Origin: Balneolales bacterium
GTDB lineage: Bacteria; Bacteroidota; Rhodothermia; Balneolales; Cyclonatronaceae
NCBI GenBank assembly: GCA_020832405.1
Contig: JAFIET010000039.1
Span: forward strand, 1 to 36,179
Length of the DNA: 36,179 bases
Reading direction: 5' to 3'
Position 1 is the stretch's first letter. Every line of letters starts with the position of its first letter. The notes under the pieces are model-generated. The model saw nothing but the letters and a program-made list of their open reading frames with translations. It was not told where the DNA came from and did no database searches. A program made the translations under genes and the position numbers. Positions 2,799 to 4,425 of this stretch are shown here, in pieces.

Positions 2799-2832
2799 AA
2801 AAGCCGGTCGCCTTGGGGTGACCGGCTTTTTT
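2799..2832 (+). terminator. Rho-independent terminator of the acyl-CoA dehydrogenase
   Basis: Left arm AAAAGCCGGTC (2799-2809) pairs with GACCGGCTTTT (2820-2830), with a 10-base loop and a T run. It ends the meaB/acyl-CoA dehydrogenase transcript and isolates the repeat array that follows. Confidence 0.85.
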
Positions 2833-2847
2833 GTTTTCAGGAAATAC

Positions 2848-3016
2848 TATTCACCAAAAACATAGTTTTTTGATGAATGTACTCACCGAAAAAGTTAATA
2901 TTTGGTGAATAGAACCTGATATTCAGTAACATCCCATTCACAAACCCTGCATACGGCCTCTCTGCCTGACTGTTTTTGGGATGCGCTTCTCGCCCAAATA
3001 CGTTCTGCGGATTACT
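2848..3016. repeat. Tandem repeat copy 1 (169 bp), with nested inverted repeats
   Basis: First full copy of a 169-bp direct repeat. It opens with a 64-bp block bounded by a perfect 11-bp inverted repeat, TATTCACCAAA (2848-2858) and TTTGGTGAATA (2901-2911). Inside is a second, weaker inverted pair around TTTTTTGATGAA and TCACCGAAAAA. The remaining 105 bp carry no gene. By eye about 11 of 169 positions differ from copy 2, roughly 93% identity. Confidence 0.95.
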
Positions 3017-3185
3017 TATTCACCAAAAACATAGTTTTTTGGTGAATGTACTCACCTAAAAAGTTAATATTTGGTGAATAGAACCTGATATTCAGTAACA
3101 TTTCATTCACAAACCCAGCATACGACCTCTCTGCCTGACTGTTTTTGGGATGCGCTTCTCGCACGAATACGTTCTGCGAATTATC
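3017..3185. repeat. Tandem repeat copy 2 (169 bp), most symmetric copy
   Basis: Second full copy in exact register with copy 1. The outer inverted repeat is TATTCACCAAA (3017-3027) and TTTGGTGAATA (3070-3080). The inner pair is better preserved here: TTTTTTGGTGA against TCACCTAAAAA with one mismatch. The block thus contains four GGTGA-type half-sites in alternating orientation. Confidence 0.95.
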
Positions 3186-3254
3186 TATTCACCAAAAACA
3201 TAGTTTTTTAGTGAGTGTATTCCCTAAAAAAGTCTATATTTGGTGAATAGAGTC
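3186..3254. repeat. Tandem repeat copy 3, partial, next to the DUF4143 gene
   Basis: Only the palindromic block is kept: TATTCACCAAA (3186-3196) and TTTGGTGAATA (3239-3249), with the same 53-bp spacing between arm starts as in the other copies. The inner half-sites have decayed (AGTGAG, TTCCCT). Similarity stops shortly after the right arm, about 50 bp before the ATPase start. Confidence 0.9.
3204..3249 (+). promoter_or_regulatory. Putative promoter/operator of the DUF4143 ATPase
   Basis: Copy 3 contains TATATTTG (3235-3242), an exact match to the Bacteroidota -7 consensus TAnnTTTG, and it overlaps the right operator arm TTTGGTGAATA (3239-3249). A T-rich -33-like segment (TTTTTTAG, 3204-3211) sits upstream at slightly long spacing. 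Copies 1 and 2 have TTTTTTGG or its near equivalent and TAATATTTG at the same places. Transcription would start near 3249, giving a leader of about 50 nt. Function is inferred from the overlap; no direct evidence. Confidence 0.4.
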
Positions 3255-3300: not shown

Positions 3301-4425
3301 ATGATTGACCGTACTTTAAGCGAGCGCATCACCAAAACCCTCTTTGGCGGTAAGGCCGTTATTGTGCTGGGTGCGCGGCAAACGGGCAAAACGACCCTGC
3401 TGAAATCGATTACGGAGCAGCAGCCGAACCGCATGCAGCTCAACTGCGACGAGCCCATTGTGCGGACACAGCTGCAGGATGCCAACCTTTCAGACCTTCG
3501 AAACATCATCGGCGATACGCGCCTGCTGTTTATCGATGAGGCGCAGCGCGTGAAAAACATCGGCCTCACCCTCAAGCTCATCACAGATAACTTCCGGGAG
3601 GTGCAGCTGCTGGTGAGCGGCTCATCGGCGCTCGACCTCGCAAGTGAGTTTAAGGAGTCGCTTGCAGGCCGCAAGCGCGATTACACGCTTTACCCCGTGA
3701 GCTGGCAGGAGTTTTCGGCACATGCCGGCTTTCTGCAGGCCAAGTCGCAGCTGGAAAGCCGCATCCTGTACGGGATGTATCCGGAGGTGATTACCACCCC
3801 CGGCGATGAGGAAGAGCTGCTGTACGAACTCATCGACAGCTACCTCTACAAAGATCTGCTGAGCTTTGAGGGTGTCCGCAAACCGGATTTGCTGAGCAAA
3901 CTGGTGCAGGCCCTTGCGCTGCAGATCGGGAGTGAAGTTTCCTACAACGAGCTCGCACAGATTGTCGGGGTTGATAAAAACACCATTTCGAGCTACATCG
4001 ACCTGCTGGAAAAAACCTTCGTAGTGTTCCGGCTGCCTGCCTACAGCACCAATGCGCGGAATGAAATCAGCCGGTCGAGGAAAATCTACTTTTTTGATAC
4101 CGGCATCCGGAATGCGGTTATTGGCAACTTCAACCCGCTCACGCTGCGCACCGATACCGGGGCGCTGTGGGAGAACTTTCTGATTGCCGAGCGCATGAAA
4201 ATGCTGGGCAACAACCGCATCCGTGCGGGCATGCACTTCTGGCGCTCGGTTACCCAAACCGAGGTGGATTATGTGGAAGTCCGGGCCGGACAAATCCGGG
4301 CGTTCGAGTTTAAATGGAATCCGAAAGCCAAAAAGACCAAACCCCGTGCCTTCCTAAACAGCTACGATGCGGAGCTTACGTTTATCGATCGCGACACCTT
4401 CACCGCTTTTGTACTCCCTGAATAG
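3301..4425 (+). CDS. AAA-family ATP-binding protein with DUF4143 domain
   Basis: 374 residues. The N-terminal ATPase core has Walker A GARQTGKTT (24-32), Walker B LLFIDE (75-80) and the sensor-like SGSSALDL (about 106-113). A winged-helix-like segment follows (YNELAQIVGVDKNTISSYID, about 217-236), then the DUF4143 C-terminal domain with YFFDTGIRNAV, ALWENFLIAE, EVDYVE and AFEFKWN; the last E/VD/FK pattern looks like a PD-(D/E)xK nuclease-fold core. These proteins are widespread, often multicopy, and their biochemical role is not established; some are discussed as mobile or toxin-antitoxin related. It lies directly downstream of the 169-bp repeat array and 6 bp before the next gene, with which it is probably co-transcribed. 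Confidence 0.92.
   Translation: MIDRTLSERITKTLFGGKAVIVLGARQTGKTTLLKSITEQQPNRMQLNCDEPIVRTQLQDANLSDLRNIIGDTRLLFIDEAQRVKNIGLTLKLITDNFREVQLLVSGSSALDLASEFKESLAGRKRDYTLYPVSWQEFSAHAGFLQAKSQLESRILYGMYPEVITTPGDEEELLYELIDSYLYKDLLSFEGVRKPDLLSKLVQALALQIGSEVSYNELAQIVGVDKNTISSYIDLLEKTFVVFRLPAYSTNARNEISRSRKIYFFDTGIRNAVIGNFNPLTLRTDTGALWENFLIAERMKMLGNNRIRAGMHFWRSVTQTEVDYVEVRAGQIRAFEFKWNPKAKKTKPRAFLNSYDAELTFIDRDTFTAFVLPE

Follow-up and report, generated by a model that had tools for sequence, protein, structure and literature searches.

The inverted repeats that precede an AAA_14-DUF4143 ATPase gene in the 36,179-nt Balneolales contig analyzed here (the window) appear to form an array that serves as the autoregulatory operator of this gene, a reading to which we assign a probability of about 0.8. 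The encoded protein very probably binds its own array, because the spelling of the half-sites tracks residues 225–227 of its recognition helix. The gene belongs to PDC-S01, a phage-defence candidate of PADLOC that combines AAA_14 (PF13173) with DUF4143 (PF13635), and its role in phage defence is putative. PDC-S01 is reported to rank fourth in frequency among the putative defence systems of prokaryotes (PMC12988326), and this abundant family is still unvalidated in the literature (PMC12988326; PMC13356809).

The array (2847–3251) has a period of 169 nt with 2.4 copies, 91% matches and 0 indels (TRF), copies 1 and 2 being 93% identical across 169 nt. Its 72-nt blocks start at 2847, 3016 and 3185, the latter two 96% and 85% identical to the first, and the motif TATTCACCAAA-N42-TTTGGTGAATA is matched exactly at three places, each a 64-bp block whose outer arms of 11 bp are perfect (Table 1). 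Four alternating cores are intact in copy 2 (TCACC at 3020, GGTGA at 3041, TCACC at 3052 and GGTGA at 3073, spaced by 21, 11 and 21 bp), the inner sites of copies 1 and 3 are partly degenerate, and the whole array holds up to 12 half-sites. An initial sequence-only reading of this DNA had described the 169-bp register, the 64-bp blocks, their 11-bp arms and the GGTGA half-sites, all of which were confirmed by TRF and by exact block matches.

Table 1. Features of the operator array and of the adjoining gene (positions in the window).
Feature	Position	Strand	Details
Terminator-like hairpin of the upstream acyl-CoA dehydrogenase gene; array boundary	2799..2830	+	inverted repeat of 14 bp, 93%, then a T run
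Distal operator block 1 (putative)	2848..2911	.	outer arms 2848-2858 and 2901-2911; exact TATTCACCAAA-N42-TTTGGTGAATA
Spacer of the 169-bp unit, 105 bp	2912..3016	.	second copy 3081-3185
Operator block 2 (putative)	3017..3080	.	four intact half-sites; 21/11/21 bp = 32-bp unit
Operator block 3, promoter-proximal (putative)	3186..3249	.	degenerate inner half-sites
TATATTTG, exact TAnnTTTG (-7) box fused with the last operator arm	3235-3242	+	proximal block only
AAA_14-DUF4143 ATPase, 374 aa, PADLOC PDC-S01	3301..4425	+	PF13173 2.4e-28, PF13635 2e-40
Walker A GARQTGKT, residues 24-31	3370..3393	+	G24, R26, G29, K30 invariant in 82 homologues
Helix-turn-helix of the winged-helix segment	3943..4014	+	helix 215-222, recognition helix 226-238; AlphaFold2 model
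Codons D225, K226, N227	3973..3981	+	covary with operator columns 4, 6 and 5, respectively
PD-(D/E)XK-like C-terminal region	4156..4314	+	E297, D323, E336-x-K338; putative assignment from the motif

The perfect, terminal-like inverted arms and the exact block length would also suit a small mobile (MITE-like) repeat inserted three times ahead of the gene, which the same reading had offered as its alternative. The genome in which the window is contig 135 (3.96 Mb in 188 contigs; among the genomes collected, the closest relative bears the label Balneolia) carries no dispersed copy of the 64-bp blocks outside the array, and the mobile-repeat explanation is rejected because of this absence. Nor did a genome search reveal a convincing match to the 105-bp spacer elsewhere. 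The three blocks stand in exact 169-bp register and share the spacer, and therefore point to tandem duplication rather than insertion. Considering also that the architecture follows the gene across phyla while the sequence changes (as described below), we attach practically no weight to a mobile origin. A regulon extending beyond the gene itself was likewise considered and dropped, as a genome-wide search for the convergent dyad, allowing up to 2 mismatches, gave matches in the window array only. A looser search with the divergent dyad at 3 mismatches gave 49 scattered matches against 20 in the control, which we read as background.

The 169-bp period is real, but it is not the basic unit of the array; that unit, which the initial reading missed, is 32 bp long and is kept well beyond this genome. 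For homologues drawn from Bacteroidota and a few further phyla, 169 upstream regions were each compared with 20 shuffles. In the period scan the evidence for 32 bp amounted to 14.7, as compared with at most 2.6 for each of the other even periods from 26 to 38. Dyad-symmetric arrays with this period scored above all 20 shuffles in 141 regions, and a significant 32-bp array was missing in the remaining 28. Similarly, 44 out of 49 strong repeats found among 99 homologues had a lag of 32, while 148 control regions upstream of neighbouring ORFs contained just 4 strong repeats. The spelling of the half-sites is gene-specific and their spacing is fixed, as illustrated by TCACCAAA, TCCCCAAA, TCACTAAA, TGACGGAA, TTCCGAGA and TCGAAAAA, among others. 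The period extends to homologues on Desulfosarcina and Treponema plasmids, but was not found in the distant plasmid members that we tested from proteobacteria and acidobacteria, nor in some of those from Bacteroidota, and we therefore confine the 32-bp claim to the subfamily around the window protein.

Within the genus, a search of relatives of the kind proposed at the outset found the blocks upstream of DUF4143 orthologues. In two of these genomes (G003 and G005) the gene occupies the same place, between acyl-CoA dehydrogenase and THUMP-like genes, and has the same half-site in another layout, with one continuous array in G003 and two blocks ~430 bp apart in G005. In a third (G001) the array accompanies the gene even though the stretch examined did not show the flanking genes. 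Judging by these orthologues, the 169-bp triplication is a local, lineage-specific expansion of a conserved array. Its block 1, just past the acyl-CoA dehydrogenase terminator, lies in the same position as the distal array ends of G003 and G005; distal extra blocks are uncommon among homologues (7/105). The 169-bp unit corresponds to ~16 helical turns and is roughly in helical phase.

The arrays are placed as expected of an operator: they directly precede the start codon and extend over the -7 box, so that the sites both adjoin the putative regulator gene and overlap its promoter, and their dyad symmetry is in helical phase (32-bp period with half-sites 11 and 21 bp apart). The motif TAnnTTTG, the Bacteroidota -7 box, occurs in 87 of the 136 homologue arrays (10% in shuffles) at a median of 28 nt before the start codon. 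In the window it is exact and merged with an operator arm in the proximal copy, just as the sequence-only reading had it. That reading had also placed the arms at both -33 and -7; the -7 part stands, and the -33 placement is not supported, no convincing TTTG having been found at the usual ~19-nt spacing. As the inverted repeats could fold into hairpins and many homologue arrays reach near the start codon, one might think of an RNA-level element (leader hairpins or an attenuator) in place of a DNA operator. However, in the window the predicted start site falls after the blocks, a search of the window brought no Rfam family to its gathering score, and the repeats covary with helix-turn-helix residues, which makes such an element extremely improbable.

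The protein matches the PDC-S01 profile PDLC04789 over residues 1–371 (E=4e-157), which makes it a full-length member of the family; PF13173 and PF13635 both score above cut-off, and its Walker A/B residues R26, G29, K30, D79 and E80 are invariant in 82 homologues. The winged-helix domain sits between the ATPase and the PD-(D/E)XK-like domain; in the AlphaFold2 model (mean pLDDT 92.3) its recognition helix 226–238 is the second helix of the helix-turn-helix, and residues 225–227 lie at the N-terminus of this helix. The putative E...D...ExK catalytic residues of the C-terminal domain are conserved in the same 82 homologues (E297, D323 and E336 invariant, K338 in at least 90%), and the model shows a helix followed by three strands, compatible with PD-(D/E)XK, while the leading Foldseek hits are AAA+ proteins. 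The best fold match is the archaeal AAA+ ATPase SSO1545 (PDB 2FNA; 356 columns, TM 0.55/0.58), with a sequence identity of only 16%, and a PDB sequence search with the window protein returned no homologue. The AAA_14-DUF4143 family is common on mobile DNA: homologues were found on 319 plasmid records (H1–H40 and 279 more), 119 of them predicted conjugative, and the viral contigs searched contained no relatives.

The evidence that the protein reads its own array comes from the covariation of the half-site with the recognition helix. In a mutual information analysis with APC correction (136 proteins, effective number 70) the top residue was D225 for operator column 4 (Z 8.7), N227 for column 5 (Z 11.3) and K226 for column 6 (Z 5.9). 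The same three pairs ranked first among all residues in a co-change test on a tree built without the HTH residues 209–241, with co-changes at 24 of the 37 operator changes for column 5 and residue 227 (p 5e-16), 15 of 25 for column 6 and residue 226 (p 1e-9) and 9 of 20 for column 4 and residue 225 (p 8e-8). Disjoint sister pairs gave 3e-7 for N227 and 3e-5 for K226; for column 4, D225 was joint third in this test. The pairings are chemically classical (Asn-A, Lys/His-G and Asp/Glu-C): N227 goes with A in 51 of 52 cases, K227 with C, that is G on the other strand, in 33 of 35 (38 of 40 once H227 is counted along with K227, the C being that of the folded strand), D/E/Q227 with G (C opposite) in 12 of 14, and D225 with C in 93 of 97. 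For homologues below 55% identity, residue 227 predicts the base of column 5 correctly in 80%, compared with 47% for the majority base and 45% for the nearest homologue; the leave-out prediction for column 6 was no better than the majority.

The half-sites and the promoter arrangement alone would fit an operator of some unrelated host regulator that happens to control PDC-S01 genes. Such a regulator is very unlikely, as the three core half-site bases co-change with the gene's own recognition helix above any other residue, and paralogues within the same genome have different sites. The specificity of the operator is instead apparently read by the encoded protein through residues 225–227. Together with the architecture shared across phyla, this covariation gives good support to the original suggestion that a promoter/operator was duplicated and that the winged helix of the DUF4143 protein reads it.

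The genome of the window has 16 DUF4143 genes, and 14 of them are preceded by significant inverted repeats within 150 nt (p up to 0.033), all of different sequence. The operator cores of same-genome paralogues are less alike than those of identity-matched pairs from different genomes (1.74 vs 2.19 of 5 positions, P=0.018, 27 pairs), a modest indication that private operators may insulate paralogues from one another, which would be a plausible selective reason for their divergence.

Several arrays observed along the way deserve mention. Contigs 41 and 81 of genome G000 (L028/L029 and L030/L034) have same-strand tandem DUF4143 pairs, each member with a different inverted-repeat array. Another paralogue (L032 / L225, G000 contig 158; L201, G005) has very long palindromes (GACTGAATTAACGTAAATTGCGTCAGTTAACTGACGC...), and L032 has a strong further block >165 nt upstream. 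In G018 contig 244 (L234:1994-2036) a GGTGA-type array follows a degenerate C-terminal DUF4143 remnant, and the gene that it would serve is absent. In G031 contig 33 (L233:2286-2347) a degenerate GGTGA-type array, which may be a relic or else mark a second target, lies upstream of an aldo/keto reductase-like gene, with no DUF4143 gene in the 4.5 kb read.

In the mechanism that we propose, the winged helix would bind inverted GGTGA/TCACC half-sites whose spacing alternates between 11 and 21 bp; with a repeat of 32 bp, or three turns, all half-sites would share the same face of the DNA. Protein bound over the -7 box would keep its own gene from being transcribed, so that the level of the protein would be set by its self-occupancy, and an event engaging the ATPase may release this repression. 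Because each paralogue would pair a private half-site spelling with recognition-helix residues to match, the paralogues would not regulate one another. In the window strain, the tandem triplication of the conserved block as 169-bp units would have added upstream binding sites. Autorepression is the most likely output, because the array sits over the promoter.

On the other hand, the protein may bind its array mainly for another purpose, with transcription being secondary, the array acting as a loading or recognition site of an AAA+/nuclease protein (e.g. a site in cis for assembling filaments, for self-marking, for excluding incoming copies or for maintaining an element). The same covariation evidence applies to this possibility, and the conserved PD-(D/E)XK-like residues, the presence of DNA-loading ATPases (Cdc6/ORC, RuvB, MuB/TnsC) among the closest folds, a number of half-sites beyond the needs of simple repression and the plasmid homologues are all in its favor. 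The arrays nevertheless adjoin the start codon and run across the -7 box, where an operator would be expected, and the genome has no sites elsewhere, so that a primary loading function seems unlikely to us.

The autoregulatory operator that we favor has a parallel in the AbiEi antitoxin (PMC7319586), an autoregulated repressor that likewise combines a DNA-binding domain with inverted repeats in its own promoter and likely self-repression. Unlike in AbiEi, the DNA-binding domain of the window protein is combined with an AAA+ ATPase and a PD-(D/E)XK-like domain, the array is phased at 32 bp, and the half-site spelling of PDC-S01 diverges between paralogues around a fixed architecture. Immunity-type repressors of temperate phages also comprise many relatives with private, apparently non-cross-reacting operators. 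The likeness is one of logic only, as they are not homologous and the window system is without a lysogeny module. The logic by which a protein regulates its own gene through a private operator is known; what is new, to the extent that we could establish, is its combination with an AAA+/PD-(D/E)XK-like protein, with an array of fixed 32-bp phasing and with a recognition code that can be read. No description of a PDC-S01 operator, DNA target or recognition code was found in the openly licensed literature, an absence that is not proof.

A more speculative extension, to which we give a rather low chance, is that PDC-S01 proteins are mutually orthogonal, self-recognizing AAA+/nuclease units whose array is both operator and identity tag, used to sense or exclude DNA of the same spelling. 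If true, this would explain their rapid diversification and the many paralogues per genome. For PDC-S01, the array supplies a candidate DNA target together with a recognition code at the level of single bases and a prediction of the regulatory circuit. In most relatives within the subfamily the operator follows directly from the upstream sequence, which offers a ready set of predicted, naturally orthogonal regulator-operator pairs. One of the commonest uncharacterized families among the phage-defence candidates thereby receives a first hint as to which DNA it targets.
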